In this document: one piece after another, positions 17,548 to 53,376 of the stretch
How the letters are laid out: every line of letters starts with the position of its first letter
Numbering within the stretch: the first letter of the stretch is position 1
Source of the DNA: Cymodocea nodosa
Taxonomy: Eukaryota; Streptophyta; Magnoliopsida; Alismatales; Cymodoceaceae
Direction of reading: 5' to 3'
Assembly: GCA_036874045.1 (NCBI GenBank)
Contig: CM072340.1
Coordinates: 9,873,001-9,937,000, forward strand
Length of the DNA: 64,000 nucleotides
Made by a program: the position numbers and the translations under genes
The notes under the pieces: generated by a model
The model's database searches: none
Told to the model about the DNA's origin: nothing
What the model saw: the letters and a program-made list of their open reading frames with translations, nothing else

Positions 17548-17587
17548 TGTTTGGTGTTTTTAGGCAGCACCACAGAACTTGTTTAGT

Positions 17588-17605
17588 TCTCCGGCAACGG
17601 TGCCA
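17588..17605 (-). other. Primer-binding site, gypsy G (tRNA-Asp-like)
   Basis: On the minus strand TGGCACCGTTGCCGGAGA, seven bases after the LTR end. It resembles the TGGCGCCGTTGCCGGGGA site (complementary to tRNA-Asp) known from Athila/Tat elements, with two changes. Confidence 0.75.
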
Positions 17606-17612
17606 GAAAACT

Positions 17613-25725: not shown

Positions 25726-25943
25726 GGTTCATCAACTAATTCAGGATACAGAATTTCCCCTAACGGTTTCTCTACTAGAGTAGCCATATCTTCGTTCTCT
25801 TTTAAAGAAATGTTAGCTACACCCCTAAGGATTTCGTTAAAGTCTAATTTAGAAAATATTTTAGTACGTCTTTGTGTTGAATAATCTTGTGTAGGTGTTC
25901 TTACTAATCGTTTAATGCTAGGAGAACGAATCCATGTACTCAT

Positions 25944-26928
25944 AAACTCTTAACATAAAGTAAAATAGCAGAAGATTAATTACATACCAGTCTAAAGCTT
26001 TATATTTAGTAAATAGTTGTTGACGGATGAAGTTGAATCAACTGCTTCTCCTTCCAGTTCTCCAACAAATTTCCTTTTCTTCCCCAAGTGCTGGTAACTC
26101 GTAAACAACATTCTGTTCTGTATTTATAATACATGTTCATAAAGAAAATGAATCTTGTTGTAAGAACGTGTCTTGTAATGTGTAGTGTGGTTCCTACTTT
26201 TATGGGTGCATGTGTCACTTCTAATTTCAAATTTTAGTAACCGCTAAACCCACAAAGTTTCGTTCGTGGCTAAAAGAATAGTCGTTTAGCTTAATCCACG
26301 AACTAACTTTGTTGAGTTACAGTTAACTCAACGGACTAGCTTCAATTACTGTTGCTAACTCCACGGACTAACTTCATTGAGTTATAAATAACTCAACGGA
26401 GTAACCTTATATTATATTATTGACCTCGTGGAGTTAAGGTTAACTCAACGAACTTATTTCATTGAGTTAACACTTAACAACTTCTAAAAACTTACTTCTC
26501 GTATTAACTTATATATTTTTCTCTCTTGCATTCTATTAACTTAAATAAAGTTAAATACATGTCATTAATTAAGTGTTCTAATTTAAAACTCATTTGAATT
26601 TGAACATTACATAAATATTTAACTTGCAGTTCATTACATGTTATGCAGAATTTATATTTTACCTTGCGACATGCAGATATTTTCAGACATTAACCAGTTA
26701 TCTTGCATTTAATCCTATCATTCAGCAAATTTGTATATATTTTAAACAATCTTGCATCTTGTTCAAACAATTATATAATATTCAAGATAATTCATCCATT
26801 ACATCATTCTCAAACATAAATGTAAACACATCTAAAAAAAAACATACATTCATTTATATGGATAGTTTACATTACAATCAATCAGATATTTTTCATACAA
26901 ATATATACAAGTAGACGAACAATACAAT
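25944..26928 (-). promoter_or_regulatory. Probable promoter and leader of G1 gag
   Basis: Non-coding. It contains at least five inverted pairs of CGTTGAGTTA/TAACTCAACG (26270-26480). A minus-strand ATTATAAATAC box lies near 26121-26131, about 180 bases before the gag ATG, and a possible leader intron has donor CTG|GTATGTAA (about 25990). In G2 nearly all of this is deleted: the aORF end there runs directly into the gag leader. Confidence 0.45.
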
Positions 26929-31344: not shown

Positions 31345-31841
31345 CTAATTGAAGCTCAAGTAATCCTCTACAATTACTTCTTCTATAATTCCAAAGGAAC
31401 TTTTTGGTATTTTCAAAATAGGTCTAAGTCTTTGTCCATTTACATGAAATATATTCTGATTTTTAGGATTTTCAATTTCAATAGCTCCATAAGGGTAAAT
31501 ATTTCGAACTATGTAAGGTCCTACCCATCTAGATCTTAATTTTCCTGGATGGTTATAGAGTCTAGTCATATAAAGATATACTTCTTGCCCTATTTCAAAG
31601 GTTTTTGGAATAATTTTCTTGTCATGCCAAAACTTCATTTTCTCTTTTTCTCTTACAGTTCTTGAGTAAGCTTCATTCCTAAATTCTTCTAATTCAATCA
31701 ATTGTATTTTTCTATTCTTAGGAGCTTGATTTAAATTAGTGTTCAGAGTTTTTAATGCCCAATAACCTTTATGTTCAATTTCAACTGCTAAATGACAACT
31801 TTTTCCATATACTAGCCTAAAAGGTGACATACCTAAGCTTT
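31345..31841 (-). pseudogene. pol: Gypsy-G integrase C-terminal fragment (G1)
   Basis: About 161 residues matching the end of the G2 pol: [48 protein letters not shown] and [10 protein letters not shown], the Athila-type C-terminus without chromodomain. Open to its natural stop, but cut at 31841 by LTR-D/LTR-B debris, so the catalytic core is absent. Confidence 0.88.
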
Positions 31842-33256: not shown

Positions 33257-33497
33257 TAACTATGTGATGTGTAAAATGCTTAAACTCCACATAAAAAGAT
33301 AAATATTATTGATGATGTTGTTCACCTCATAGATATTATATACTTATCATAAATATCTAAAGTAATATCTAAACTGCTGCTTAAGATACTATGTATTTAT
33401 TGTAAAATCATAGTAGTATCTTATTGATTTTAAGTAGTTTATCAATTTTAATGGTTTTTACGATTTTAAGTGGAAGTATAAATGAAAATCATTAAAT
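33257..33497 (+). other. Copia-A post-RNase H fragment (A3)
   Basis: Nearly identical to 11190-11432 of A2 (CTATGTGATGTGTAAAATGC onward). The joint at 33256/33257 shows that primer site, gag and pol were deleted. At 33498 it is cut by the truncated G2 5' LTR. Confidence 0.88.
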
Positions 33498-33973
33498 ACA
33501 ATGTAACTAGCATTAAAAAGCTTAATTGATGTTATTTACAATCTATGGAATCGCCCAATGGTTGGCCGAATTCCTTTGTAAATAGCAGTATTATATAGAA
33601 GAGACAGGCTCGTGGAGTTAACTTAAGTCCACGAGGATAGTCCGTTGAGTTATCCACAACTCAACGAACTTAGTCCGTTGAGTTTACTGTAACTCAACGG
33701 AGTGCTTATTGAATATAAATTTGAATTGTTCACAATCAAACATTTCTTAAATTCGTCTGCAATTTCCTATGGGATCAACTTGTACTTGCACACTGATACA
33801 ATAGACACTGTGCACTTGCAGTTAAAGTACAAATTGGAATTAATATCTAAATTGTATTAAAGGTTGTTTGTTTACTTATAAAAGAAAGAATAGGCATAAA
33901 GATAAATTAACTAAGTAAAAATAGAAGTAACAAATCCAAGTTTTTCTAGTGTAGTGTTGGGAAAACCCGAACA
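33498..33973 (+). repeat. G2 5' LTR, 3' part only
   Basis: Matches 47582-48089, including GGAATCGCCCAATGGTTGGC and the TCGTGGAGTTAACTTAAGTCCACGAGG inverted motif (about 33610-33637). It lacks one 30-base inverted repeat unit present in the 3' LTR (47750-47780). It ends CCGAACA, seven bases before the primer site. Confidence 0.88.
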
Positions 33974-33980
33974 AGTTTTA

Positions 33981-33998
33981 TGGTGCCGTTGCTGGGGA
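33981..33998 (+). other. G2 primer-binding site (tRNA-Asp-like)
   Basis: TGGTGCCGTTGCTGGGGA, two changes from the Athila/Tat consensus complementary to tRNA-Asp. Followed at once by a (GAATT)n run (33997-34033). Confidence 0.78.
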
Positions 33999-34033
33999 AT
34001 TGAATTGAACTGAATTGAATTGAATTGAATTGA
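33997..34033 (+). repeat. GAATT microsatellite after primer site
   Basis: About seven units of GAATT/GAACT between the primer site and the first coding region. Absent from the equivalent place in G1. Confidence 0.85.
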
Positions 34034-34051
34034 TATAAGCAACTGTTAGAG

Positions 34052-35785
34052 TTGTTTCATTTTAATAGTCAGAGTTGTGTATTTTCTTCTATAATTGAGA
34101 ATATGGCATATGCTTATGCTCAAAGATTTCTGAAACCTTTAATTAGCATATGTGAATTCTGCAATTCTGAAGGACACGACATTTCTGATTGTTTGAAATT
34201 GAGACAGTTACAAATTGATAGATCTCATGAACAACAAATGAATTATCCTCAATATAATAGAGTCGAGTATGAGAATCCTATAGTTTACCCAACTAATGGT
34301 TAGTATAGAATGTGTAATATGATGAGAGACACTGAAGTTTGGGATAGCTATGACAGACTGGAGCATAGTATAGAGCAAAATCTGAACAAACTAGAATACT
34401 TTGTGTGTCGACAATAAGAAGTCAACCAATTAAACTATAAGGAGGCATATTCAGAACCTAAACAGGATATAATTTACGAAACTAAAAAAGCCATAAAGAA
34501 AATTGATCAAAAATTGAATGCAATGAAATTAGATGACTTGGAAACAAAATTAAAAGCATTAGACAAAAATGCAATGAAAATACAAGTTTTGCAACAGGAC
34601 AATGAAAATTATAATGTTATAAACCTGCACAACTTGCAAAATATACAACAAACAGAAAACACTAATGTAAGAGAATTTAAAGAATGCACTTTAAAACTAA
34701 AAACAATTGAAGATCATAATCACGAAAATGATATACAAAAACATCATGAAAGTAACGAAAATCTAGAAGATGTATGTGTAACATTAAGATCTGGAACTGA
34801 TATACCACCAAGAACTCAAAATGAAAATGATATGAAGGTGGACAAGAGTAAAAATCAAAATGATAATGAAAATGTAATAACTGAAAATCTACAAATCACT
34901 GAAGAACAATCTGAATCTGCAATTGAAGCTAAAAATGATCAAACAAATCAACTTAAAGAAAAAGAGTCTTTGAAATCAAAATCTTTAGCACCCTATCCTA
35001 AAAGATTACAACAAACAATTCCTGAAAAACAAGAAAAAATCAGAGAAATTTTTGAAAAAGTACAAGTTAACATTCCTTTGTTAGATCTATTGCAGAATAT
35101 GCCACCTTGTGCTAAATTTCTAAAGGATTGGTGTACTAAGAAAAGAGAGCGAAAAGTTCTTAGAAAGGTCTTTTTAGATGAGCAAAGTAGTTACCTATTT
35201 CTGCCACAAATTCTTAAAAACTTATCTGATCCTGGAATCTCTGTTATAACATGCACCATAGGAAATACCATTCTAGAAAGAACATTAATAGACTTAGGTG
35301 CAGGTATAAATGTTATGTCAAGTGATATATTTGCATCCTTAGGATTAGAAGGCTTAACTCCTACTAGTACGGTTATTCAATTAGCTGATAGAAGTATAAG
35401 ATACCCTAGAGGAAAAATAGAGGATGTCTTAATTAAAATCAAGAATTTTATATATCCTATTGATATTGTAATTTTGGATTCCCAACAAATTAAGCATAAA
35501 AATAGTGATACATCTTTAATTTTGGGAAGGCCATTTTTAGCAACATCAGGGGCTATTATAAATTGTAAAACTGGAGTAATGAAGTTAGCATATGGTAATG
35601 AGGATACTCAATTAAATATTTTCAAACCAGAAAGGTTTGAGGAGTTAGAAATGTCCTTACATACCATAGACTTTTTAGAGGATGAAGGAGATATGTTAGA
35701 TGATGTGATTCAAGAAGAATTAAATAGGCAAATCAATTCTGAAACTTTAGAAGAAAGTGAAAGCATAAATATAGAAGGAGATTAG
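34052..35785 (+). pseudogene. pol: G2 nucleocapsid knuckle and aspartic protease
   Basis: First part of the pol frame (frame 2). CCHC knuckle CEFCNSEGHDISDC (about 34150-34192). A Lys/Asn/Glu-rich coiled-coil-like region follows, then VTLRSG (about 34775), a gag-pol junction motif in Athila-type elements. Next come SLAPYPKRLQ and the retroviral-type protease with LIDLGAGINVMSS (about 35287-35325) and LGRPFLATSGA. Stops at 34301, near 34415 and at 35783. Otherwise in frame throughout. The usual gag core is not here: it lies at 41745. It makes the protease that would cut the polyprotein. Confidence 0.88.
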
Positions 35786-37380
35786 GAAGAAATTAATTTA
35801 AAAAATGATGATGTTCAATTAGGAGCTTTAGCTTCTGATGGGCAGCATTTAGAATTAAAACATTTACCTCCTGAATTAACCTATATATTTCTGGAAGATA
35901 AATGGACCTGTCCAATCATTATTGCTTCAGATTTGAAAGAGGATCAAATAGCTAAATTAAAAGATGTAGTAAAAAGTTATAAAGAAGCAATAGGATGGAC
36001 TATGACTGATATAAAAGGGTTAAGTTCAACTTTATGCTGTCACCACATATATTTAGAAGAGAATGCTAAACCTGTTAGAATTCCTGAGATGAGATTAAAT
36101 CCAAACCTTAAAGAAGTAGTCAGGAAGGAAATAGTTAAATGGTTAGATAATGATATAATATATCCGATTTCTAATAGCTCGTGGGTTAGTCCAATCCATG
36201 TAGTTCCCAAGAAATCAGGATTAATAGTTATTAGGAATGAAAGTCAAGACTTGATACCTACTAGAATTCAATCAGGCTGGAGAGTATGTATAGACTATAG
36301 AAAGCTGAATGGTGTGACTAGGAAAGATCATTTTCCCTTACCTTTTATAGATCAAATGCTGTAAAGATTAGCAGGGCAAGAATATTTTTGTTTCCTAGAC
36401 GGGTATTCAGGGTATAATCAAATTCCAGTAGCATTAGAGGATCAAGAGAAAACAACTTTCACCTGTCCTAATGGAACTTATGCTTTTAAAAGAATGCCAT
36501 TCGGATTATGCAATGCACCAGCTACCTTTCAAAGGTGTGTGTAGGGCATATTTACTGGAATGACTGATGAATTTTTAGAAATATTTATGGATGATTTTAC
36601 TGTATATGGCAACTCATATGAAGTGTGTTTAAGCAATTTAGACCAAATATTAAAACACTGTGTGGAAAAAAATTTGGTTTTAAATTGGGAAAAATGTCAC
36701 TTCATGGTTAAATAATGAATAGTCTTATGGCATGTTGTTTCTAAAAAAGGGTTGGAAGTAGATAAAGCTAAAAAAGAAGTAATTTCTAATCTACCAGAAC
36801 CTAAATCAGTACAAGATATTAGATCATTTCTAGGACATGCTGGTTTTTATAGAAGATTTATTAAAGACTTTAGCAAGATAGCTAGAGCTTTAACTAATCT
36901 ATTAAAAGATGTTCCATTTAACTTTGATAAAAATTGCAAGGAAGCATTTTTCAGACTTAAGACTAGCTTAATTTCAACTCCTATAATTCAAACACCTAAT
37001 TGGAACCATCCATTTGAATTAATGTGCGATGCTTCTGATTTTGCTGTAGGAGCAATGTTAGGACAGAAGATAGAAAAATCTCCTAGTGTGATTCATTATG
37101 CAAGCAAAACCTTAAATGATGCTCAAGTTAATTACACAACTAATGAAAAAGAATTATTAGCTGTTGTGTTTGCTTTAGAAAAGTTTAGATCATATTTGAT
37201 TGGAGCTAAAGTGATAGTATACATGGATCATTCAGCTCTAAAACATCTAATAAAGAAAAAAGAAACTAAACCTAGATTGATTCGATGGATATTATTATTG
37301 CAAGAATTCGATCTAGAAATTAAAGATAAAAAATTGTGTGAGAATGTAGTAGCAGATCATTTATCAAGATTACAAATAGA
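35786..37380 (+). pseudogene. pol: G2 reverse transcriptase and RNase H
   Basis: RT blocks: WVSPIHVVPKKSG (36180), WRVCIDYRKLN, FCFLDGYSGYNQI (36390), FKRMPFGLCNAPATFQR (36485) and catalytic MDDF (36586; the usual Tyr or Phe before it is Phe). RNase [17 protein letters not shown] (37015), [12 protein letters not shown] (37140) and VYMDHSAL (37220). Only a few stops: 36362, 36544 and a double stop near 36712. All pieces are in frame 2, so the copy is young. Copies RNA to DNA and removes the RNA strand. Confidence 0.93.
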
Positions 37381-38749
37381 AAAATCAAATATTGAAATTA
37401 AGGATAATTTTCCTGATGAACAATTAATGACCATCAACACAATGCATTGGTATGCAGACATAGTTAATTACTTAGTTACTGGTTTAACACCTAAGGATTG
37501 GAATAGACAGGATAAGAAATTATTTTTCTCAATAGTAAAATATTACTATTGGGAAGACCCTTACTTATTTAAGAAATGTCCTGATCTGGTTTTAAGGAGG
37601 TGTATTCCAGAAATTGAATATTCGAGCATATTGTCTTTCTGTCATGACCAAGCTTGTGGAGGACATTTTGGTTCAGGGAAAACTACTGCAAAAATTCTGC
37701 AATGTAGGTTTTATTGGCCAACACTATTCAAAGATGCTCATAAATATTGCTTAATTTGTTTAAGATGTCAACAAATAGGAAGAATATCAAAGAGGAATAT
37801 GATGCCTCTTAATCCTATTGTTGAGGTTGAAATCTTTGATGTGTGGGGAATAGATTTTATGGGTCCATTTCCTATGTCTAATCAATTTAATTACATATTG
37901 TTGGGGGTGGATTATGTATCTAAATGGATAGAAGCTATTCCTACAAAAACTAATGATAAGAAAGTGGTAATACAATTTATAAAAACAAATATATTTGCCA
38001 GATTTAGATTACCTAAAGCTATTATCAGTGATAGAGGAACTCATTTCTGTAATAGAAGTTTTGAAGCCTTAATGAAGAAATATGGAGTAAACCACAAAAT
38101 TGCAACATCATATCATCTGCAAACAAGTGGACAAGTAGAAAGTGCAAACAAACAAATTAAATTAATCTTGGAAAAAGTAGTAAATCCTACTAGAACAGAT
38201 TGGGCTAATAGATTGATTGATGCACTTTGGGCTTATAGAACTGCTTATAAAACGAGCTTAGGTATGTCACCTTTTAGGCTAGTATATGGAAAAAGTTGTC
38301 ATTTACCTGCTGAAATAGAATATAAAGCTTATTGGGCATTAAAAACTCTGAACACTAATTTAAATCAAGCTGCTGAAAATAGGAAAATGCAACTAACTGA
38401 ATTAGAAGAATTTATAAATGAAGCTTATTCAAAGACTATAAGAGAAAAAGAGAAAATTAAATTCTGGCATTTTAGAAAAATTATTCCTAAAAGCTTTGAA
38501 ATAGGAGAAGAAGTATATCTTTATATGGCTAGACTCCATAACCATCGAGGAAAATTAAGATCTAGATGGGCAGGACTTTACATAGTTCGAAATGTTTATC
38601 CTTATGGAGCTATTGAAATTGAAAATCCTAAAAATCAGAATATATTTAAAGTAAATGGACAAAGACTTAAACCTATTCTGAAAACACCAAAAAGCTCCTT
38701 TAGAATTATAAAAGAAGTCAGAGTAGAGGACTACTCGAGTTTTACTTAG
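37381..38749 (+). pseudogene. pol: G2 integrase (end of pol)
   Basis: Uninterrupted to its stop at 38749. HHCC zinc region: [21 protein letters not shown] (about 37645-37775). DDE core: [10 protein letters not shown] (37845), ISDRGTHF (38027) and [12 protein letters not shown] (about 38123). The C-terminus has [22 protein letters not shown] and [10 protein letters not shown], the Athila-type tail with no chromodomain. It would insert the cDNA. It is the largest open pol part, but the whole polyprotein is broken upstream. Confidence 0.93.
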
Positions 38750-39230: not shown

Positions 39231-39480
39231 GGGGAGTCCGTTAAGTCTTGAGTTACTCAACGAGCTTATTACATTGAGTTACCTGTAGCTCAACGGAGTA
39301 CTGTAGCTAAGACCGCGAATAAAATAGTAATAGTTGGTTCGGGAAATGACCCGATTACCCGCCTAAATTTAGGGCTTATTTAAACTAAAACCTAGGGTTT
39401 TAGGGGCATTATCTGGCAAATCATTTAGAATCTAGAATAGTAGAAATCAGAGCGATTCCGTGCTGTTGTGTAACTCCACT
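39231..39480 (+). promoter_or_regulatory. Probable internal promoter of G2 aORF
   Basis: GAGTTACTCAACGAG, TTGAGTTACC, GCTCAACGGAGT motifs (39240-39310), then GATTACCCGCCTAAA and a TTATTTAAAC box (about 39377-39386), about 100 bases before the ATG at 39481. The G1 counterpart is similar, and copia A has the same order of motifs, TATTTAAA and ATG. Confidence 0.5.
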
Positions 39481-41664
39481 ATGAGGAAGATGACGCTTGA
39501 ATTCTAGGAAGATGTTGATACATCAGAATTTCTGAAGGAATTAGAAGAGTGGCACACGTGGTAGAAGATCAGAAATATGACAAGAGAGAAAGAGCTACAG
39601 AAGGTAGAATCAGAACTTTTGAAGTTTAGAAGAGATTTAGTAGATATGGATATACAAATACCTCAAATAATGGAAACACCAATCAGAATAGCAACAGAAA
39701 TAACTGTAAGCAAGGAAAGACAAATAAGGCCAAGTAATGAAGTTGCCTTAGAATTAATCCAACGTAAGTCCCGGCTCTGGTTCAAAAGACGAATCTGTAG
39801 ACAAGCTAAATGGGCGATCTGGGAGCAAGAAAGGAAAGCAAATGAAGAGGCAACTAAAGAATAGGAGGAACCAACTGTTGAAAGACCTGTTCCTGAGGAG
39901 CAGCAGTCTGGACCTTCAATTCCACCATTTAAGCCATTGGCACGAGCAGAAATGATGGGGCCTTCGACTGAAGAAGAAATAAGAGAATTTGCAGAACTGG
40001 TTCAAGTTGGAAAAAACTAAGGAAAATCAGAAGATTTGGTAGTGGCTAAAGTACACCTGGTGTTTGATGCACTATACAAAAAGAGGGCTGCAGAAAAGTT
40101 GAAAGCCCAATATAAAATTAAAGTGGAACAGCATCAAGAAGCTACTACCAAAGCTGCTATTAGAGATGCTGCAAAAGAAGCTGAAGCTGGTCCTTCGAGA
40201 CCAGCAATTATTGGAAAAATTAAATAGGAAGAGCCAGTACCTGTGGTTCGAAAGCCTGTAGAGCTTATTTTTGTAGATTTAATTTCAGAAGATGAAGAGG
40301 AAGAGCAGACACAACTAATCAGAAAAAAGAAAGAAAAAGACAAAGTGCCTGAATATGAAGAAATTAAATCTGAAGTACCAATTTTTACAGGGCCTGTGAA
40401 GTAGATTTTTATTAACCTGCTATCCGAATCTGAGGAGGAGCAAAGAAAAGAAAAAAATCAGGCTGAAATTAGTTTGCCTGTACAAGAAGAAACAGAAATT
40501 AGGGCAGAAACTGAATTGCTCGTGACTCCATCCCAATCTATTACAGAATCAGAAAGAACAGTAATAGAATAGATTGGTAGTCAGGAGGAAGAAGAAAGAG
40601 TAGAAAATGAAGAGGCTAAAAGAAGCCATTTGGACAAAAATAATTTCACAGATTCCACTGAAGAGCAAGAAACTCTTCAGTAAATTATGGAAAGAATTCA
40701 AGATAGAGTGGAGAGTTCTGCCGGCTCACCACCACAGACAGAAGCAAAAGCAAAAATTCAGGAATCTGAAGAGAATGTCCAAATGCAACCTATGCTAGAG
40801 GAAGAGCAAGAGCAAACCCCTCTGGAGCAACAAAGTCACCTTCCTGACCCGACTGAAACAACAATTTTGAATGAAGTACATTTTTGTAGTCAGGAAGCTT
40901 ATACCAAATACCAAGAAATAAGGGGTTACGATATTATTTACAGTAGACCAGTAAATTGGGATGGAATGCAAGAAATCAAAGATCTATTTGAATTCCAAGG
41001 TCTACTACAATTTATATCTCAAGAAAGAGGGCATGCAGTATATGAGAATTTAGTGCCCTGTTTCTATGCAAATTTAAGAGAAGGAGAAGGAGGATTAATT
41101 TCAAACGTGGAGGAAGCTGATGTACAGATAACACCAAAGCTTCTTCACAACATATTTGGTTTAAAGAATGAAGGAACAAAAATTTTGGAAGATACAACTG
41201 CAGTTGAATGGACTGAGCAGCAAATTAAGGATTGTTTAGCTATCAATCCTAGTGTGCCATTATTAAACAGATTGAAGCATTTAAATGGTAAAGCACACAT
41301 GGTAGCTAACATTCTAATTAAGAATGTCTATCAACGACAGGGCCATGACATAGAATTAAGTCAATTTGTCAAATGGGCCACGTATGCAGTTGTAAATAAG
41401 ATCCAAATAAATTGGTTTGCAGTTTTTATCTCCAAGCTGAAAACAGTGAAGAAGAAATTATTTTATGGAGATTTGATTCCACTACTGATGGTGGATTGTA
41501 TTGATTTCACTAAATGGACATCAAAAAGGATCAGATCAAGAACTATTTCAGTGAAAGAATACAGAAATTTTGTAGCTGCAGAACTAGTAGTACCTTTTGG
41601 AGAAATTACAGGAGCTCTAGAGAAAGGAGAAAGCGTTGGAGGAACTGGAAGGAGAAGTAGCTGA
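39481..41664 (+). pseudogene. Gypsy-G aORF, copy G2
   Basis: One frame (frame 1) of about 728 codons with stops near 39505, 39562, 39862, 40018, 40225, 40402, 40570 and 40681. The last 326 codons are open. N-terminus: basic/helical (REKELQKVESELLKFRRDL). Middle: Lys/Glu-rich, acidic clusters. C-terminal half (about 40900-41550) is the transposon-protein domain: SRPVNWDGMQEIKDLFEFQG, ENLVPCFYANLREG, ITPKLLHNIFGLKNEG, AHMVANILIKNVYQRQGHD and KKLFYGDLIPLL. It is homologous to the copia-A and copia-B 3' ORFs. The C-terminal coiled coil kept in G1 is replaced here by GGTGRRSS, because a deletion fuses the ORF to the gag leader. Function unknown. Confidence 0.85.
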
Positions 41665-41744: not shown

Positions 41745-43086
41745 ATGAGCACATGGACTCGTTCTCTAAGCACTAAACGATTAGTAAGAACACCTACCTA
41801 GGAATTTTCATTACAGAGGAGTACTGAAAAATTTTCTGAACTGAACTTTAACGAAATTCTTTGGGGTGTAGCTAACCTTTCTTTAAAAGAGAACGTAGAG
41901 ATGGTTGCTCCAGTAGAAAAACCATTAGGAGAGATTCTGTATCCTGAATTAATTGATGAACCTTCATGTATTCGATTGCCAAACTTTGAGGGAGATAGGT
42001 TTGAACTGAAATCTAATTATATTAGTCAATTGCCACATTTTCATAGATTAGAAAGAGAGGATGCGTATTATTTCCTTAGAGAATTTAACGAAGTTTGTCA
42101 AATGATGAGAATGCCGAACATGAGTAAAGATGCTATTAAACTTAGATATATCCCTTTTGCTTTAAAAGATACAGCTAAGAGATGGTTATATACTCTATCG
42201 CTTGATTCAATTTCTACATGGACTGAATTTTGCTCTATTTTTTTGAAAAATACTATCCAATACATCAAACGATTAAAAAGAAGAAAGAAATATTAATGTG
42301 TAGCCAAAAATAGGGTGAATCATTCTGGAAATATTTTGAAAGATTTAAAGATTTACTGACTCAATGTCCACATCATGCAATGAGTAAAGCATAATTAATA
42401 GGCATAATTTATGAAGGCATAGATGTTTCAACGAAATCTTTATTAGAATCTACTTGTCAAAATGGATTTTTAAAATTATGTAGTGAAGAAGCATGGGCAT
42501 ATTTAGAAAATTTTGCAAAAAGAACTGGACAGTGGGAAAATTCGGCTGAAGCTATTGCAGATAAAACATTATTGCCAAGAGGAATGCATGAAATAGATTC
42601 CAATACTATGCTTGAGGTGAAATTAAATGAATTAACAAAGAAAATAGAAGAGTTATCATTAAATCAAAAGCTAGCAGAAAAGAATACAAACATAAATGAC
42701 TTAGATATTATTTATGCTAGAACCAGAGAGATAACTTGGGAAATTCTTATAATCCTAATTGGAGAAATCACGCGAATTTATCTTGGAGAAACAACAATTT
42801 CCAAGGAGGAGAAAATATAAATGAGAAGAACATAAGTTATGAAATATTAATTGAACAAGGAGCTAGAATAGAGAAATTAGAAAAGATAATCCAACAAGTA
42901 AACAATCATCTAGAATTTATATTTGGAAATGATGTAAATCAAAATCAGAATAGAAATATACCACTTAGACAGAAGGAACCAATGGAAGTTAGACCTACTG
43001 GAGGATTGCCAATACAAGCTATACCTAATCCTGTCAATAGAACGGTTAATGAAATTGATACCTCTTCTGGGAGGGTAGCTGAATGA
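41745..43086 (+). pseudogene. gag: Gypsy-G gag core (G2), located after integrase
   Basis: Starts MSTWTRSLSTKRLVRTPT then TAG. It continues with PSCIRLPNFEGDRFELKSNY, a plant gypsy gag signature, LREFNEVCQMM, KLRYIPFALKDTAKRWLYTL (41150 region of the G1 homologue is equivalent), QCPHHAMSKA, YNPNWRNHANLSWRN and a Gln/Asn/Arg-rich end, RVAE TGA at 43086. Frameshifts near 42240 and 42730. It lacks the zinc knuckle, which sits alone at the start of pol. A capsid-forming protein by family. Its position downstream of integrase is unusual and is shared with G1. Confidence 0.88.
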
Positions 43087-43111: not shown

Positions 43112-43273
43112 GTATGTATATATGTTTTTTATTTTTATTTTAAGTTAATAGTATCGTAGAGTTAATTTTTAACTCAACGAACTTAGTCCGTTGAGTTATG
43201 CCATAACTCTACGAGGGTGTGCAGTAGTTATGTTAATTTTTGTCTCTGCTAAATTTCTATTTTTATTTTACAG
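43112..43273 (+). other. Putative intron/leader upstream of G2 F-box gene
   Basis: Donor ATCT|GTATGTAT at 43112, T-rich acceptor TTTTATTTTACAG at 43273, nine bases before the ATG. It holds GTAGAGTTA..TTAACTCAACGAAC..CCGTTGAGTTATG. G1 has an aligned donor (GTAAGT) and acceptor. If spliced, the F-box message could start within or before gag. If not, the motif array may be the gene's promoter. Confidence 0.5.
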
Positions 43274-43282
43274 AATCGACAA

Positions 43283-44422
43283 ATGGAATTAATGCAATTA
43301 CCGTTGGATGCACAAAGGGAAATACTAGGTAACTTGTCAGCTAAAGATCTGTGCAAGGTGTGTTGTGTATCAAAGGAAATTAAAGACTGTATTGAAGAAA
43401 AATATTTTCAGGGACTACAAGCTGCAAAAATGACTAAGATTAGAGATGGATTCATATGGAGGTCATTTAATCGTAGTTCAAATACCCATGAATATCTGGC
43501 TATGGAAGAAACTATTGGAATTCCACCTAATGCATTAGAAGGAATGAGTCATATTATGGGGATAGATGAAGGATTAATCATATACAAGACAAGACCAAGG
43601 TATGCAAGTTTATCATTACCTGAGATTTTGATAAGAAATTCTATAACATGAGAAGAATGTAATATAGGAAGACTGAATATATTTGAAGCACCAACTGAAA
43701 ATTGTGGGTCAGCTTTAATATTTTCTGATAAAAATTCTGCAATTCCTGAAAAATTATATTATTGGAGACCTACAGGAAATTGGGGTGAAGATTTACGCTT
43801 AAGTGTGTACAATTTTCTGAACAGATCTTGGAATGAAAACATTATAATATATCTAGGACAAAAATCATTAATTAACCAAACACATGTCATACTTGATGGT
43901 TATATCTATTTAGTCACAGAGATATCAATAGCATATAGATCTGATTTATACATAGTGAGCATAGACAGTTATGATGATTATATAGAAATTTTACCTGTAC
44001 CGAGTGAAATAGCTAAACCACCATCTGAAAAATTTAATAAAATTCAAATAGGAATGTGGTATAATGAAGAAGATGATCCTACTTTATGTCTGATAAAATG
44101 GTGGGATGAACTGATGAAATTTCAAATATGGATTATGGAAGACATGAATGAATGGAAGTGGGAAGAGGAGTATATTGAAATAGATGTAGAAATAGAAACT
44201 GCTACATTACCCTGGAACCAAAAAGGATCCCTTTCTGCATTACATATCATTAATGGTAATACACTCATATTTGGAATTTATAATATATTGCATGTTTACA
44301 AATTAAAAAGGAACAAGAACTGCGTTAAAACAGAATTAATAGCAAGAAGAACTATGCCTAAAAAGTTTGCTTGGACTGATACATTTATTCCATTTGTTTC
44401 TACTTTTCAATCATGTTCTTAA
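43283..44422 (+). pseudogene. F-box protein gene carried by G2
   Basis: A 379-codon frame with one internal stop (TGA at 43649). F-box domain at about residues 3-45: LMQLPLDAQREILGNL, SAKDLCKVCCVSKEIKDC. The region from about residue 60 to the end matches the F-box-associated type: GIPPNALEG, YYWRPTGNWGED, SVYNFLNRSW, IQIGMWYNEEDDPTLCLIKWW, LSALHIINGNTLIF. F-box proteins bind SKP1 and choose substrates for SCF ubiquitin ligase. The lone stop aligns with Arg in G1 and so looks like a CGA to TGA change. It lies 200 bases after gag and before the non-coding block. A captured host gene is the likely origin. Confidence 0.88.
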
Positions 44423-46190
44423 GCTGTGATTTTGTGTGTTTAATGTTGTGTATTCTGCATTTATTTTTAGAAAGAAAAAAAAAACAAACAAAACAAACAA
44501 AACAAAATATCAATCCAGTTTGTTGGTATCTGTTCTGGGAAACCAACTGGCTTGCTTGTGAGCCACCAAAGGCATAGGAGCCTAGGTTCCACACAAGACA
44601 CTGATTTATTAACATCTGTTAAATGTTATTTTGTTTTATATTCTGTGTTTATCTGGGAATGAAAAGTTTTTCAGAATCAAAAATCGGAATATGCAGAAAG
44701 AGATACAAATGGAACATGGTATGTAACCAATTACTTATCCTGAATTTTAAATCAAACAAAACTTTATTCATGCCTGCTACAATTACTGTACTTATTGTCA
44801 AAACTTTTACATTGAGGACAATGCAAAATGTAGGTATGGGGGGGAGGTAATTAAAGTAACAGTCATGTAAGTTTGTTAATTAAAGGAATTAAAATGGTAC
44901 TGCAAAGTTTTGAGGAAATTGAAAATTTTTATGAACTTGTTGTAACTATCCGATAATTGAGACTATAAAATTTTTATAAACTGCTTGAATGTTATATTTA
45001 GAAGGCTATAGAAGATGCTATAGAATTTATTATTTATGTAAATCTAGATATAGTATCTTATGATTTTTATGAATTTCATGAGTTTAATAGTTTCACGATT
45101 TTAAAATGAAATCAGAATATTTAATGCTTAATCAGAAAATTATCTAAAGTCCTAAAGGAGCTGAGATGTGAATTCTAGATTAAATGAAACACATATGATG
45201 AAAGATACATTTACTTTGACTGATTGAACTTGTAGAATGATTTATGTGTAGATCTTATTAAACTATAGATAAAGTATGAGCTTATTGTTATGGATTCATA
45301 TTTTTAGTAAATGATAGAAGCAGGATTATATGAGATTGGTGTTTTACTGCATTTGTATTAATGAAAGACGTGCATATACAGTATGTGATTAATGCTTTGT
45401 TTTGTGTGTGCATTTATTTTTAGAAAAAAAAAAAGAAAAAAAAAGAAAAAAAACCTTGAGAGTTTATTGACTTGTTTGATCACGAGCCTTTTGTACTTGA
45501 GCAAATAAGTATGTAAGGATTGTTGACCTGAAAAAGGACTCTGAAAATCTAGCAACCTAAGATCTTGATCAGATCTGGGATTGTTGACTGAAAGCTCGTT
45601 ACATGGGTACATTAGAAAGCTCTTGTATGATTCAAGCTTGTCAAATTAACTTTTAAAGTACACAAAAAAAAGAAAAAAAAAAAAGAAAAAAAAAAGAAAA
45701 AGAAAAAGAAAAAAACATATATTGTTCTGAAAAGATACAAGTATTTTGTGAAATACAGATATCTTATGAATCGAGTATATTTTCTGTTATCTAGAATTGC
45801 TAAAATGTGAATCTGGAATTGACTTTTGAAGTTGTTTAATGGAAATACAATTCATTATTCTACTTGTCTTAATCAGATTGAATTGGATTGTACTTTGATT
45901 CGTATGTTGTTGAAATTTCTTCTAGAAAAACTTATTGGGAAATTCAGGATTACAGATGATGAAAAGAAGAACAAACGATAATATAATTAACACCTATATG
46001 AAGATGATATACTTTGTATGTAATTTACATATATTCTAAATATCTTTGTAGGTTGATTACTAAAACATACAGAATATATGTTTATGCTGAACAGAAAAAA
46101 AAAAAAACAAAAGGGGAAGAATTAATTCTAGCACTTTTTGAAAGACAAATTAATTAGATCTTAGTTTGCTAAGGGACTAGCAAAATTTAG
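44423..46190 (+). other. G2 non-coding region between F-box gene and 3' LTR
   Basis: No gene. An ATTGAGGACAATGCAAAATG followed by TATGGGGGGGAGG (44810-44850) is the Athila-type purine tract and could be an earlier plus-strand primer. 45000-46055 is the block shared with copia A. Long A/G runs at 45421-45456 and 45666-45715. Confidence 0.75.
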
Positions 46191-46202
46191 GTATGGGGGA
46201 AG
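46191..46202 (+). other. Polypurine tract of G2
   Basis: GTATGGGGGAAG directly before the LTR start TGTTTAGAATG. Confidence 0.8.
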
Positions 46203-48089
46203 TGTTTAGAATGAAAAAGTGCATATTATTAACGGTAAAATGATGGTTAATTGCATAATATTTAGCTTATCATATGAGAATTAAGCCATTATGTTATAAT
46301 TGCACTGTTATATGCTTTAATTGAAGAATCTGCTTAATTTTGGGGAATTAATGTTAATTTAGTACATTTATGAACTGTCCGTAAATTGCAGGCTGTGAAA
46401 TTCTTAAGTATCTGAAAATGCATCTAAGCATCGGATAGTTATACTTGTAACTCTCTGAGATGTTATTTTATGTTTAAACTACTACTAGCACGTGTTAAGA
46501 GTTGGTAGATTTACTTATGTTATAACTCGTTAAGTTAGTATAACTACACGCGTTGAGTTACATGAAAATACACTAAGGCAACGTGTTAGGTTAGCGTTAT
46601 AAACTTAAGTTGTTATTTTTGCACGTGTTTTATAGTTAAATCAACGAAGAAAGTCCGTTGAGTTATATGTAACTCCACAGACTATATATTTTCTAATATG
46701 CCACTGTAGCGGTTGCAGGAACAGACAGTTGGAAGGAAAAACCACGTTCGCAAGTATCACGCAAGAATTCAATCGTGTAGGGAGAAAGAAATCATCGTCG
46801 TTGATCTGAAGGAAGGAAATCCAACCGATCATTCAAGCAGAAGCAGTTACCACTGAAGAAATATAAAAGAAAAGAAGAAAAAAAGAAAGAGTGTGATCGA
46901 TGAACGGCCAATGTATATAGAGGAGGAGCACCGAGCTTTCTATAGACAGTATCGGTGATTCTCCAAAATATCACACCAACCATCGTTATCACCACCATAA
47001 TTACCTATCATCGGAGATCTGTGAGGATACTTGCTTGATGTGAGGTCGATTCCGAGCCAAACATAGTGCCTGACAACCATTGTGAGGAGTGATCGCGTCG
47101 CGGGAAGGGAAGATATTTTCACCAAGCGCCAACTCATATTTTAGAAGATCGTAAAGCTTTTAGCCTTGGCTTCGGGTTGATGCCTGTATGCTGAAGAGGA
47201 GATCATCTTGCAATTCTGGACTCGCGATTCTGTAGGGAAAGGAGACAGAATTGTAAGTGGTTTAATTTTCAGTGGTGTAATCATGTTATAAGTAGTGTCG
47301 GAAGTATTTACTATCAAGTGAGATTACTTTACATTTCACCTTTCGCCCATCACATCAAAACAAAAATACCAAAAACAATTTATCTTTGTTTGTATGTTGT
47401 ATTTGAGTGTTGTATTGTTTGTGTTGTATCGTGATTAATGTTATTTGTATCAGTTTTGTGATTGTTTTATGTTAGTTTTAATTTTACAGTTTATTGAAAT
47501 TGGTTCGTACAAAACAACTTAAAGATTTTAATGGTTACTATTTGAATCATCTGAATGTTAGTATTGCTTAATGATAAATCCAATGTTAACTAGCATTAAA
47601 AATCTTAATTGATGTTATTTACAATCTGTGGAATCGCCCAATGGTTGGCTGAATTCCTCTATAAATAGCAGTATTATATAGAAGAGACAGGCTCGTGGAG
47701 TTAACTTAAGTCCACGAGGATAGTCCGTTGAGTTATCCATAACTCAACGAACTTAGTCCATTGAGTTATCCATAACTCAATGAACTTAGTCCGTTGAGTT
47801 AACTGTAACTCAACGGAGTGCTTATTGAATATAAATTTGAATTGTTCACAATCAAACATTTCTTAAATTTGTTAGCAATTCCCTGTGGGATTGACCTATA
47901 CTTGCACACTGATACAATAGACACTGTGCACTTGCAGTTAAAGTACAAATTGGAATTAATATCTAAATTGTATTAAAGGTTTTTTGTTTACTTCTAAAAG
48001 AAAGAATAGGCATAAAGATAAATTAACTAAGTAAAAATAGAAGTAACAAATCCAAGTTTTTCTAGTGTAGTGTTGGGAAAACACGAACA
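46203..48089 (+). repeat. G2 3' LTR (gypsy G)
   Basis: 1887 bp, TGTTTAGAATG to CACGAACA. It has TCGGATAGTTA motifs, a 107-bp block shared with copia-A LTRs (46521-46627), and a TATAAAAG box (about 46862). Repeated inverted CCGTTGAGTTA/TAACTCAACG units lie at 47700-47820. It is followed at 48090 by copia-A sequence equal to 12061 on. Confidence 0.9.
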
Positions 48090-48831
48090 AGATACATTCT
48101 TTTATTCTCCTTGAATTAATCACATTGAGTTCAAAGTTGTGTTTTGATTCATATACACTAGGAATTGATTCTGGAAATCATTTTTGATGATGTTAGAATA
48201 ACGGAAGTCTCTGAAAAGAAAATTTAAAAGTATAGTTATACTTAACATCTATTGTCACTACAAGTATATTTTGTATTTTGATTGAATATATTTGAAGTAT
48301 ATTTGTAGGGGGAGGATTACCAATGTCGAAAACAGATTAATATAATTTATAATACAAATCTTGGTTAATCTGAATTAATGTCCTCTTAAAATATTGATGA
48401 AATAATTTAAAAAGACAAAAAAACTATTTTAGATTCAAAGGACAAAAATGTTTGAATAGTTTACAATGTTCTCAAGATAATGTTAAGTTTAGCATGTGTG
48501 TTGTTTTCGGAACGTTTCAATTGGAAGCATCTGAAAATTGTTTTAAGTGTACTAACTAGACGTTATATTAGATAAGGTAACATGTAAAATTGCCTCTAGA
48601 CAGCGTTTTACTCGTTAGGTTAGTTAACTCAACGAGTTCTACTTCAATATTTCGGGTACCTTGATTGAACAAACTTTATTCAATATTTAGTTAATATCTA
48701 AATTCGACTTCTATCACGTTGCGTTACTCACCTAAAAACCCTATTTAAACACTTATTACACGGGCACTTAGGTTATTTGTAAACTTTGTCAAGAAAATCT
48801 TTCCTGCTTGTTGTTGTTACAACCTGCGACA
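48090..48831 (+). promoter_or_regulatory. A3 post-RNase H remainder and aORF promoter region
   Basis: Equals 12061-12801 of A2. Internal purine tract AGGGGGAGGA (about 48308-48317), ACTCGTTAGGTTAG and TTAACTCAACGAGTT (about 48610-48637), TATTTAAAC box at 48742, ATG at 48832. No gene. Confidence 0.6.
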
Positions 48832-51102
48832 ATGGTCTCCAAGTTCTACAAAGGTCATGGCAGAGGAAAAGGCAAAAGCAGAGGAGATGCAAAAGGAAAA
48901 GAAATAGAAAATGATGAAGTTCCACGCACTTGGTTCAAGAAAAAATTTCAAGTGGACAAAAGGTTAGCAGAAATTTATAGAGATTACTTCTTTTCTGAAG
49001 AAATACTAGATGAAGTTAGACATGAACTTCAACATACTGATGCAAATATTACATACATGAGTATTCGTAGTAAATTTGATAGAGAATACAAAATGAAATG
49101 TGCTGAGATTGCATTTCTCGAGCAGTATGCAAAATATTTGGAAAAAGGTGTAGGTACTTCAACTAGAACTCCTCAAATACCAATAAACAGTACTAGACTA
49201 CATGCATTTGAGGAAGAGCATGAATCAGCTATCCCTACTCCTTTATATTCAAAACAAGTAGAATCAAATATTGCTGTAGACAAAACAAAAGTAGACAGTC
49301 TTCGAAAGGCCATAACAATAGAGAGTGCCTTAGAAGAATTAAAGCAGAAAACTTTTATGGAACAATTTCAGAAGAAAATAGCAATACTTCAAGAAGAGCG
49401 ATTCACTTGTTATAGAAGAAGAAAAATTAGAAAAATTATGTCTAAGGAAACAAAGTCTATTGTAAAAGGAAAATCAAATGAAAATTTATTTCCGAATGAC
49501 AATGTATGTCTAGACATTGTACCTTATTGTCCATCTGATAAACTCATCAGTTCCGAACACACTGAAACTGATGAAGATAATGAGACTTTATTTTCCCTTG
49601 CTAGAAAGCTTGAGAAGAAATACAAGTCAAATATAAGCTCAAGTTTTTCTATTAGTACAAGTCCTGATGATGCATAAATTGACAAATCAGAGCATCAAGC
49701 ACTTGACATTGAACAAGTTGTTGCAGATATAATTGAAAATGTTGAGGCAGTAACTAGTTCACAAGCTAAATTGTCTGGAGTAGTAGATATTGGAAATGTT
49801 AAGACTCCAAAAGAGCTAAAAGTTAACCAGCCTTCTATAGAATCTATAAAAGTAGAGTCTGAGAATTCACAACATGAATCAATTGAAATATCTGTTGAAC
49901 AAAATGAACAATTACAGACAGATACATCGATTGTAGAATTTATGGAAACATTGAACTCTGATCATTCTATAGAAACTAAACAGATGAATGTTGAGCATAT
50001 TGAAGATGTTCCTAACACTGTTGAAGTTGAAGAATCAAGCTTACCTGAGCAGCTTCAAGATAATATTTTGGAAGAGGAACAACATGACATTCATTTTGAA
50101 GAAGAGGTTCCTGAAGATGAATTAAACTCTGAATCATAGCTTCAGGTATCACCTTCTTTGTGTATAGTATTACAAATTCAAGGTAATGCAATTCATTTTA
50201 GATTTGAAGAAGCATTGCAGAAATACAATAATCAGATTACATGTTAGATTTTGCATGCTCGTCCAATAAAGTTCAGAAATTTGATGGAAATAAGAGATCT
50301 TTTTGAGTTTCAATGCCTCATTCAATTCTTGCCAGTAGGAACGAAATGGAAGCAATACAAAGAGCTTATTGCACCTTTTTATAGCAATCTGGTCAAGAAT
50401 GGAAATTTTCTGAAAACTCAAATAAATCAACAGGAGTTTATATTGTCTCCTAAGTTAATTTTTGAAGTTTTGGGATTAAAGAATGAAGGTGTTGTTGTTA
50501 CGAACAGATTTGACATGATTAGTCAATTGGAATGGAACATTCAGTCTTTATCAAAAATTCCAGATGTATATTCTGAAATGAGATTAATGGAAAATCTGAA
50601 TGCAGAGGCAATGTTTATTGCAAATATATTGCATGCAAATTTATTTCAAAGAGTTGGACATAATTTGAAAGTCAGCAGAAGCTGTTTATATGCAACTTAT
50701 GGCTTGCTGAATAGAATTCAAATCAATTAGTTTGATGTTTTTACTTCTCAACTACAGCATATGAGTTCAAAGTTATTTTATGGTGATGTTGTATGTAGAA
50801 TTCTTGCAAGCCAATTGAATTTATCCAATTGGCCCTCTAAAACTAAAGGCATGAGAGCATTTAGTGTTAAAGATTTGCAAAAATTTCAGGCCATGCATAA
50901 ACTTAAAAGACAACCACAACAACAACTTGACTGTACAGACCATATACAACAACAACAACAAAGTTATTCAGTTCAAGCAGAACAGCAAACCCAGCTACCT
51001 CCTGACTTAGATGCAGTGCTTAACGACATCAGAAATGATATTAGGCATCTAGGAGATAAAATATATAATGCTATAAGTGATATACTTAGGAGGGCTCGAT
51101 AA
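48832..51102 (+). pseudogene. Copia-A aORF, best copy (A3)
   Basis: 757 codons in a single frame with only four stops (49675, 50137, 50224, 50728; the last replaces a Trp codon). No frameshift. N-terminus MVSKFYKGHGRGKGK is basic and could bind RNA or DNA. About 49150-49450: helical Lys/Glu-rich part with RRRKIRKIMSKETK, a possible nuclear signal. About 49680-50130: acidic. About 50240-50850: transposon-protein domain (RPIKFRNLMEIRDLFEFQ, APFYSNLVKNG, LSPKLIFEVLGLKNEG, ANILHANLFQRVGHN, KLFYGDVVCRILAS). Gln-rich stretch, then helix LNDIRNDIRHLGDKI. It is the counterpart of the gypsy aORF. Not a typical envelope: no signal peptide or membrane segment seen. Confidence 0.85.
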
Positions 51103-51237
51103 TTATTTTTATTTGTTTCTGAATACAAAATGTAATGTTTGTATTTTTTTGTTTGATTCATTGAACAATACATTTTTCTGTAAATGTGTTCAATTATTAT
51201 TCTTGCTTACATAAATTGTTGTTGTAAATATATCTCT

Positions 51238-51271
<34 letters not shown>

Positions 51272-51579
51272 TCTGTAATTATCTTTTTGATTAATGACAA
51301 AAAGGGGGAGAAATATTAATTGCATATATTATAAAGGGAGATGATATTTAAATGGTTATTGTAATCTGATAGATGATAATTAAAAAACTGATACTTATAT
51401 AATTATTGACATATGAGAGTTTTAGTTCTAAGAGGTGAAATTTACACAAACAATAGAAATAAGCTTAAGTGAACTTAAGTCAACAAACAAGTTTGTTGAA
51501 TTAAAAGTTAACCCAACAAAGGTACTTTGTTGAGTTAAATATATTTCATAATTGAATTAATATGGTTTTGTCATCATCA
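51103..51579 (+). other. A3 non-coding 3' region with hairpins
   Basis: No gene. A TA run (51240-51270), first AAAAAGGGGGAG tract (51299-51311), hairpins at 51481-51498 and 51510-51536 as in A1 and A2. Confidence 0.75.
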
Positions 51580-51592
51580 AAAAGGGGGAGAT
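51580..51592 (+). other. Polypurine tract of A3
   Basis: AAAAAGGGGGAGAT before the LTR start TGTTGAGT. Confidence 0.85.
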
Positions 51593-53376
51593 TGTTGAGT
51601 ATTTTGTTTTGATGATGTGTGCTGAATGAAAATAATCATATTTGCTCAATTACTATTGCTTGTGAAAAGAAATTAAAATCATCAATTAATATAGAAAAAG
51701 CTTACTAACATAAATACTTGTTTGTATTGGATCTAAAGTTAATAAGTAGTTGTTTCGTTGCATTAATTTCTCATTTAACTAAACGTTAAGTTAATGTGTA
51801 TTTTTATTGAAAAGCATGATATGTTTTAAAGTTATATCTTCTATATCATGAATAGTGCACGTTTAGACAACTCGTTAAGTTAGAGTTTTGTTTGTATAGA
51901 GGTCACGTGAGAACTCGTTAAGTTAGAGGCTTAAAGGTTAAAATAGGTCATGTGAGAACTCGTTAAGTTAGTGAGTAAAAGAATAGACGAACTCGTTAAG
52001 TTAGTGTTATACACGTGGTGAAATTATAAGTTACGAATGTTGTATTGTATCATGTGAGGTGCACTTGTTTAACTCGTTAAGTTAGCATAACTAAACACGT
52101 TGAGTTGCTATATTAAACACTAAGGCAACGCGTTAGGTTAGCGTTATAAACTTAAGTTGTTATTTTTGCATGTGGTAAAATTCTTATTATAAAAACATTT
52201 GTTTATTGTTGAATCGGTGAGTTAAACATTTTCGGAGACTTACAACCGTAACTATCCGAAACTTAAACTATTTTCGGTGAGTTATCGTTTAACCTTCCGA
52301 AAGAAAGGTTAAGTTGGTTCGTAGAGTTAGTGTAACACCACAGACTTAGTTCGTTGAGTTAACTACGGTACTTGTCACGTGAAATGGCACATGAGGAACT
52401 CGTTAAGTTAGAAATGTTAAGTTATATATATATACTTGTGTTACTCGTTTAGTTAACATTAAAGTAACGACTTCTTATTACGCTTGATGAAAGATTTTGG
52501 ACGAGAAAGTTTATTTTGCAGGAAATTTTTCAGAGATCCAGGACTGATGATTAAAGAAAATTCGAAATGTCAACGTGGGTCAGAACGTGTGTATTTCGAT
52601 GAAGGAAAAAGAAAAGACGTGAAGAAGTGGAAAACTGGTAGTGGTTAAACATGAAGGATATGCACGAAATGAAGATACAGTATAAAAGGCATAGAATTCT
52701 CGTTGATCAAATGAATCATTGCACACAAAACAAAAAATCTTTTCAAGGATCAAACTATCCCTGTACACCAAAAGAAAAATCTTTTTTGGGGATTAAAAAC
52801 ACCTCTTCGGGGAAAAGCTCTCAGGTGGAAGAAAATTCAATGAAGCAGAAAAATGTAAGATATATGTCATTGAAGATTTGAAGTATCAGGTGGAAGAAAA
52901 TTCAATGAAGTAGAAAAAGGTAAGATATATGTCATTGAAGATTTAAAGTCTCAAGTGAAACAAAATTCAGTGAAGTAGAAAAAGGTATTATTTATGTCAC
53001 TGAATATTTAAAGTATCAGAGAAAGCAAATTCGGTGAAGTAGAAAAGGACAAGATATTTGTCATTGAAGAATTGCTGAAGAAGAAAAAGAAGAAGAAGAA
53101 AGATCTCAAATAGGGAGAAATGTTTTAAATTTTGCAAATTAGTTTTCTCTGTTTGTAGTTATAAAATTGTTTAGATGATACATGGTATCGAGATATAATT
53201 GCATATACAATTTCTTAGGAGAATTGAATTGTATATTGTAATTGAAACCTTAAATAAAAATGATTTTATGAAAACAATGTCTCGACTTGTTTTTGAGTTT
53301 TAAAGTTTCAATTATATTTCAGAAAATATTGAAAAACACAATTCACCCCCCTCTTGTGTAGCCATACGATCCTACA
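51593..53376 (+). repeat. A3 3' LTR (copia A)
   Basis: 1784 bp, TGTTGAGTATT to CGATCCTACA, both termini intact. It contains CTCGTTAAGTTAG units, CACGTG boxes, the 52070-52174 block shared with gypsy LTRs and a TATAAAAGG box near 52679. It abuts a gypsy LTR that lacks its first about 98 bases. Confidence 0.92.

Follow-up and report, generated by a model that had tools for sequence, protein, structure and literature searches.

An Athila-like Ty3/gypsy retrotransposon family of Cymodocea nodosa carries an F-box gene as a regular module and gag 3′ of pol

A high-copy Athila-like Ty3/gypsy family in the Cymodocea nodosa genome probably (at roughly 0.6, in our estimate) encodes its own F-box protein as an SCF adaptor that would remove a protein limiting the element, host restriction being the likeliest target. 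The gene, which joins an F-box to a probable F-box-associated (FBA) domain, is a regular module of the element and lies before the 3′ polypurine tract and LTR. Its product is most likely, from its sequence, a putative SCF adaptor serving the element. The window, that is, the whole stretch of DNA analysed, comprises 64,000 nt of contig CM072340.1 (assembly GCA_036874045.1, 374.6 Mb in 28 contigs). It holds two copies of the gene, in elements named here G2 and G1. An earlier description made from the letters of the window alone (the sequence-only reading) had placed F-box/F-box-associated frames at 43283-44422 (+) and 21432-22568 (-), each between gag and an LTR; both frames are present there, in that position. 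The module order that it gave (aORF, gag, spacer, F-box, purine tract, LTR) also matches, and the pol of the same element, absent from that description, lies upstream of the aORF. The claim that both copies are full length holds by alignment, but neither is open, G2 having one stop and G1 three. The features of G2 are as follows.

33493-33973 (+), 3′ part of the 5′ LTR, its upstream part missing or disrupted; end ...GAACA at 33973
33981-33998 (+), PBS, TGGTGCCGTTGCTGGGGA; a similar site follows the 5′ LTR in fetched copies
34000-34417 (+), start of the pol frame, interrupted by stops in G2, with the CCHC zinc knuckle CEFCNSEGHDISDC
34418-38746 (+), PR, RT, RNase H and INT region; stops between 35782 and 36719 break the frame
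40687-41664 (+), aORF; weak PF20167 (Transposase_32) match, E 8e-5, below cut-off
41745-43086 (+), gag (capsid region), broken; 3′ of integrase and aORF; no zinc knuckle seen
43260-43273 (+), intron-like 3′ splice site TTTTTATTTTACAG at the end of the spacer, just before the F-box ATG
43283-44422 (+), F-box and F-box-associated gene; TGA at codon 123 (43649-43651)
46185-46202 (+), polypurine tract, ATTTAGGTATGGGGGAAG, like the tract in fetched copies
46203-48089 (+), 3′ LTR, TGTTTAG...GAACA

The LTR parts of G2 are 89.6% identical (33493-33975 versus 47575-48091), and the motif TGGTGCCGTTGCTGGGGA is one that we take to be a PBS of the Athila/tRNA-Asp type. Pfam matches in pol comprise RT_RNaseH (E 3.7e-35), rve (9.2e-15), Integrase_H2C2 (3.7e-12) and, below cut-off, Asp_protease_2 (1.4e-4). 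The knuckle pattern at the pol start, seen in G2, is intact in four of eight fetched copies. The best PF20167 score of the aORF is 25.5 bits, under the cut-off of 45. Gag of G2 presumably starts at the ATG at 41745; its Retrotrans_gag match (E 2e-4) is below cut-off, and a piece of the fetched copy L012 scores 70.2 bits (E 1.7e-19). A short motif, gttgagttatccataactcaacgaa and its variants, is repeated at 39240-39320, 43140-43220, 46540-46680 and 47695-47820; these sites fall in the LTR and in the two spacers that precede the aORF and the F-box.

The second element, G1, lies on the reverse strand and belongs to an older subfamily.

31345-31839 (-), C-terminal part of the integrase, upstream of the G1 aORF and gag
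27002-28970 (-), aORF region, 80% identical to 39651-41621
22700-23924 (-), gag (C-terminal and core parts), upstream of its F-box
21432-22568 (-), F-box and F-box-associated gene; stops at 22194-22196, 22170-22172 and 21639-21641
17607-19636 (-), LTR downstream of the F-box; a PBS (17588-17605) and then a PR-region fragment (17177-17547) come next

Further G1 gag at 25725-26066 is set apart by an insert. The LTR previously noted 3′ of the G1 F-box is present, but it runs on into the PBS and PR fragment and is therefore not a simple 3′ LTR end. In the stretch 17177-19636 (-) two elements meet, either head to tail or through LTR recombination. One other repeat (~85% identical) occurs in or next to gag both in G1 (24394-25725, -) and in a divergent relative described below (L079:470-1822).

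The frame encodes, as judged by profile matches, an F-box protein with a plant FBA-like domain. PF00646 matches the first open pieces of the window copies (G2, E 9.5e-9; G1, E 4.7e-9; 35.3 and 36.2 bits) and all 15 uninterrupted genomic copies examined (best E 4e-11), with copy L012 at 38.7 bits, above the curated cut-off of 20.5. The F-box-associated profile TIGR01640 likewise matches 15 of 15 uninterrupted copies (best E 2.6e-8); L012, the first copy, scores 23.5 bits, under the cut-off of 37.9, and the family copies L070 and L072 exceed it. FBA_1 (PF07734) gives weak matches in 6 of the 15 (best 0.011). Some other genomic copies of the frame are open throughout, unlike both window copies. 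AlphaFold models of the window pieces gave no usable fold, with low confidence (pLDDT 34 and 39).

A 29-base F-box tag, at no more than three mismatches, has 3,784 sites genome-wide, beside 3,619 for an integrase tag and 3,544 for a gag tag under the same limit; reversed-pattern control tags have none. These similar numbers indicate that the F-box gene is about as frequent as the canonical genes. Six-frame genome searches returned copies 93-100% identical to the C-part of G2 (148 of 6,107 candidates scored) and 86-100% identical to G1 (150 of 5,429 candidates scored). In a tree of the F-box copies, some nodes of which are weakly supported, a ladder of subfamilies leads toward G2, and all of them carry the F-box. 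With 86.5% identity between G1 and a G2-type copy, the two window copies fall into different subfamilies. The two frames are thus separate copies, as had been proposed, with the correction that they represent different subfamilies of a family with thousands of members. A local segmental duplication as the source of G1 and G2 is ruled out by the copy number and the subfamily tree.

The family also weighs on F-box gene counts in this genome, where the best matches are mostly copies of it: ten loci read from the best F-box/F-box-associated matches comprise eight family copies, one divergent relative and one host gene. A genome search with TIGR01640 gave a top score of 49.8 bits (150 of 1,634 candidates scored), and the three of these loci that were read (L069, L070 and L072) are all transposon-borne, suggesting that typical host FBA genes may be few in the genome.

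Whole copies show how the module is carried. Ten were fetched via F-box matches, as two 10-kb stretches each; the LTR and TSD tests cover the eight that were delimited, all except L023/L024 and L025/L026. All eight have paired LTRs and a 5-bp TSD (five exact, three with one mismatch). The LTRs of a pair are 95.0-97.1% identical, compared with a mean of 93.6% and a maximum of 96.1% between copies, and for 15 of the 16 LTRs the closest LTR is its own partner. They read TGTTTAG...AACA (AATA in L021); the 5′ LTR is followed by a PBS, and the 3′ LTR is preceded by a purine tract. The TSDs and paired LTRs identify single insertions, mobilised as a unit that includes the F-box. That the gene is carried by the element itself, as first suggested from the window, is borne out by these units, by the parity of its tag with those of gag and integrase, and by its occurrence in a divergent element. 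Other members of the family also have it, among whole copies fetched via F-box hits rather than by LTR sampling. Paired LTRs, PBS, polypurine tract, 5-bp TSD and the order PR-RT-RH-INT are those of a Ty3/gypsy element; the Athila label is a provisional fit, from the PBS motif and the weak resemblance of the aORF to PF20167.

Where present, the markers follow the order 5′ LTR, leader, PR, RT, RH-INT, aORF, gag, F-box, 3′ LTR. All modules lie between the LTRs in five of the ten copies (L009, L011, L015, L019 and L027, the F-box being truncated in L015), and L013, L017 and L021 are internally deleted, their remaining modules in order; L023/L024 resembles a recombinant of two elements and L025/L026 is without pol. 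The full element therefore reads LTR - CCHC-PR-RT-RH-INT - aORF - gag - F-box - LTR, an order that puts gag 3′ of pol. This departs from the canonical LTR-gag-pol order: INT and the aORF come before the capsid part of gag, and the CCHC knuckle stands where the pol frame begins. A view independent of the fetched copies comes from exact tag sites on C1 (49 F-box, 100 INT and 87 gag sites among the matches listed). Within these listed matches, a gag tag lies 1.73-1.80 kb upstream on the same strand for 22 of the 49 F-boxes, and other gag-F-box pairs within 12 kb number two upstream, one downstream and one on the opposite strand. Pairs of INT and F-box within 12 kb, again among the matches listed, have INT upstream in 19 cases, downstream in none and on the opposite strand in 7, and the corresponding numbers for INT relative to gag are 28, 4 and 6.

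It is very improbable that this order is a composite artefact, in which pol and the aORF-gag-F-box part would come from different or nested elements and gag would not truly lie 3′ of pol. Nested and tandem insertions are common here, the G1 LTR is joined to another fragment, and L023/L024 looks recombinant. However, half of the fetched copies hold every module between TSD-flanked paired LTRs (with the truncated F-box of L015), three more are deleted versions of the same order, and same-strand INT-gag pairs on C1 are 28 to 4 in favour of INT upstream among the matches listed. The divergent element likewise has an integrase end, an F-box and a gag. Separately, one locus (L016, C14:12138494-12148493) has a 677-codon open frame, seemingly a gag-F-box fusion through loss of the spacer and the F-box start.

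The divergent element was found in the TIGR01640 search (locus L069/L079, 49.8 bits), and 4.9 kb of the locus was read.

L069:778-2979 and L079:1-470, divergent element: integrase end, acceptor-like site, F-box, gag with CCHC knuckle

Its F-box/FBA protein is 34-38% identical to that of the window family; the frame is broken, with an open piece of 258 codons. An integrase C-terminal frame, 52% identical across 46 residues, ends ~150 bp before the F-box, which has its own acceptor-like TTTTATTTTCAG in front of it and a gag (53-63% identical) with a CCHC motif behind it. F-box and gag are thus swapped relative to the window family. With gag 3′ of the integrase and an F-box nearby in this divergent element also, the arrangement seems older than the window family.

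Searches beyond the genome gave no relatives of the protein. An alignment of 15 copies against 5.8 billion proteins yielded none among 3,664 candidates at E <=0.1, a search with the C-part of the G2 protein none among 98 at E <=0.01, viral contigs three pattern matches with none confirmed, and the PDB no match. As a positive control, a host F-box/kelch gene (L071) taken from this assembly gave 564 matches, the best from Colocasia (69%) and Zostera (67%), so the database does contain plant F-box proteins. Transposon proteins are often omitted from protein sets, which makes the absence of relatives elsewhere weak evidence. The family protein resembles those of host F-box/FBA genes in joining an F-box to a probable F-box-associated domain; it differs from them as a transposon protein without close database relative (0/3,664 at E <=0.1).

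Signs of constraint were sought in 56 projected F-box copies, seven of which (L006, L007, L033, L035, L050, L025x and L022x) were dropped for indels or divergence, leaving 30 G2-type and 19 G1-type copies (window G1 included) for site counts and dN/dS. The tree was also made without L001, and counts of subfamily steps used 13, 4 and 30 copies. The copies are best protein matches mostly chosen for open frames (19/20, 16/20 and 10/10 per fetched set), which lowers dN within groups.

The window pair was not chosen by similarity. Its NG86 dN/dS is 0.36 for the F-box, 0.33 for the integrase C-terminus, 0.24 for the aORF and 0.24, 0.41 and 0.66 for three gag pieces. Its F-box changes, ~90N:54S, depart from the expected nonsynonymous fraction of 0.769 (p = 1e-4). 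Between the G1 and G2 subfamilies the F-box ratio is 0.43 (95% codon bootstrap 0.32-0.60), so that neither comparison gives the value near 1 that the sequence-only reading had associated with a chance passenger. Among fetched copies the ratio is 0.35 within G1 (bootstrap 0.27-0.48) and 0.48 within G2 (0.34-0.76). A few whole G2-type copies give 0.48 for the PR region, 0.50 for RT, 0.72 for RH-INT, 0.50 for the aORF, 0.48, 1.74 and 0.71 for gag pieces and 0.41 for the F-box, a comparison that favours the F-box because the copies were picked by it.

Site counts separate old from recent changes in G1. Singletons (139N:38S) are close to the neutral expectation of ~3.3:1 and fit decay after insertion, whereas variants in at least 4 of the 19 copies are 42N:44S (Fisher p = 2e-6 against singletons). 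Such depletion of amino-acid changes among common variants is the pattern that purifying selection in source elements leaves. Clear depletion was not seen in G1 variants present in two copies (38N:12S) or three (15N:7S). Within G2, variants in at least three copies (20N:14S) show no difference from singletons (100N:39S; p = 0.15), and those in two copies are 34N:6S. A first count of near-fixed differences between G1 and G2 gave 44N:15S. Changes on the branch that leads to the young G2 subfamily (51N:23S) are indistinguishable from the neutral expectation (p = 0.13), and also from those of the step before (16N:12S; p = 0.35); on that branch constraint may have been relaxed, or the protein may have changed adaptively. 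Taken at the level of sequence, the counts suggest that selection kept the F-box gene working in the source lineages of the older subfamilies.

We consider it improbable that the gene is a captured host F-box gene hitch-hiking and decaying neutrally in the copies, as has been thought for single captures by LTR retrotransposons. Such decay would account for the stops in both window copies, for the G1 singletons and for the near-neutral step to G2, and one flax copia element whose LTRs enclose an F-box gene has been published (PMC5142383, partial text). It conflicts, in these sequence comparisons, with the copy-number and constraint results: the F-box gene, in ~3,800 copies, is about as numerous as gag and integrase, the common G1 variants are depleted in amino-acid changes, and the window pair departs from neutrality as given above. 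Moreover, among the fetched copies, mostly chosen for openness, 21 of 33 of the G2 type and 14 of 20 of the G1 type have uninterrupted frames (L037, with a net one-base insertion, is excluded from the G1-type open count), and these open-framed copies differ by 9-15% at the nucleotide level.

Gag and the F-box, both being far 3′, would be translated from spliced subgenomic RNAs. The intron-like acceptor just before the F-box ATG points to spliced expression; ACAG is kept at this site in seven of eight fetched copies that retain the region (ACAA in L012). The description of the spacer as intron-like stands for its end, TTTTTATTTTACAG in G2, but not for a donor: one weak site and none convincing was found in the 5′ leader. 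The F-box would bind SKP1, the FBA domain would bind a target, and the SCF ubiquitin ligase would remove a protein limiting the element. The likeliest class of target would be host restriction, for example RNA-silencing or DNA-methylation factors; by analogy with polerovirus P0, silencing factors would rank first among the candidate targets of a transposon F-box protein, and the sequence-only reading had likewise put them forward as a possible example.

Alternatively, the protein might regulate the element itself, whether its proteins or its copy number, for instance through turnover of Gag or integrase, instead of acting on host defence. The constraint on the F-box in the window pair is similar to that on integrase and aORF, and in both kinds of element the F-box adjoins gag (downstream of it in the main family, upstream of it in L069/L079), which would suit such self-regulation; virus-encoded F-box proteins, however, target the host proteins RB and AGO1 (PMC3588083, partial text), and we regard self-regulation as unlikely. 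An SCF adaptor directed at a host protein remains our preferred reading. A more far-reaching form of it, which we put forward tentatively and hold to be less probable than not, is that of an old lineage with a permuted genome and spliced 3′ genes, whose own changing SCF adaptor would destroy host silencing factors. The element would then carry Pol, an accessory ORF, a Gag split from its zinc knuckle and an F-box protein, and counter-defence, if this is true, would be present in nearly four thousand copies.

Viral proteins offer the nearest functional parallels. Silencing suppression by polerovirus P0 requires an F-box-like motif, nanovirus Clink is an F-box protein that binds RB, and P0 is without typical C-terminal repeat domains, according to the available part of one review (PMC3588083); F-box counter-defence has a viral precedent in a further partial text (PMC6593998). 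P0 and Clink resemble the family protein as F-box proteins of plant-infecting mobile genomes, and SKP1-type binding is theirs; P0 differs in that the protein described here has a plant FBA-like domain and is known from sequence alone. VANDALs are DNA transposons. Their VANC, a plant-transposon protein that acts against silencing in a sequence-specific manner (PMC10398659 and PMC5735166, both in part), may be likened to the present protein as a proposed anti-silencing protein from a plant transposon; it differs in that no F-box link is shown for VANC.

In its structure, the family is like Athila, Calypso and Diaspora in its TG...CA LTRs (1.9 kb here), a PBS resembling the Athila motif shortly after the LTR, a 5-bp TSD, the order PR-RT-RH-INT and, 3′ of pol, an aORF that weakly resembles PF20167. 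The PF20167 domain is reported for the 3′ aORF of sunflower Athila (PMC11728184, in part). Diaspora has the order Gag-zinc finger-PR-RT-Int in one frame (PMC1142308, in part); the present family, by contrast, has gag downstream of the integrase and aORF, keeps the zinc knuckle where pol begins and has an F-box gene in addition. Additional ORFs are already a familiar feature of plant LTR retrotransposons. Elements with additional ORFs (env-like, TRP28 and Transposase_32) and spliced expression in Bagy2 are described in the accessible portion of a review (PMC7264820), the text of which has no mention of F-box, and TRP28, Smc and other antisense domains are described for Retand (PMC11963269, in part). 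Like these, the family has extra ORFs between pol and the 3′ LTR; it differs in that the extra ORF is a recognisable F-box protein.

Nor is an F-box in an LTR retrotransposon new as such, given a flax Ty1-copia insertion with an F-box protein gene acquired between its LTRs by transduplication (PMC5142383) and an LTR-gene in the F-box family in Thlaspi (PMC8764390), both sources being partial texts. In the flax case, as in the present one, the LTRs of a plant retrotransposon enclose an F-box gene; as far as the partial source goes, the flax element is one insertion, whereas here a gypsy family has thousands of copies, parity with gag and integrase, and signs of constraint. In the open-licence PMC literature, no description of a family-wide, constrained F-box module was found, and narrow phrase searches of that literature found none of gag 3′ of pol. 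A family-wide F-box module at gag/integrase parity, together with gag after pol, thus appears new within the literature searched. The escape of retrotransposons from silencing is an open question in plants, and the functions of extra ORFs are mostly unknown; since this one has a recognisable role, that of a predicted SCF substrate adaptor, and signs of constraint, its target can be sought directly. A gag-after-pol order would challenge the usual picture of Gag as the first product of genomic RNA.

The window also holds several copies (~90% identical) of another element type, at 12061-16031, 48090-52261 and 905-4930 (-). It has an ORF starting MLLLQPATMVSKFYKG and an aORF resembling the PF20167-like one (2150-2692 and 50251-50730).
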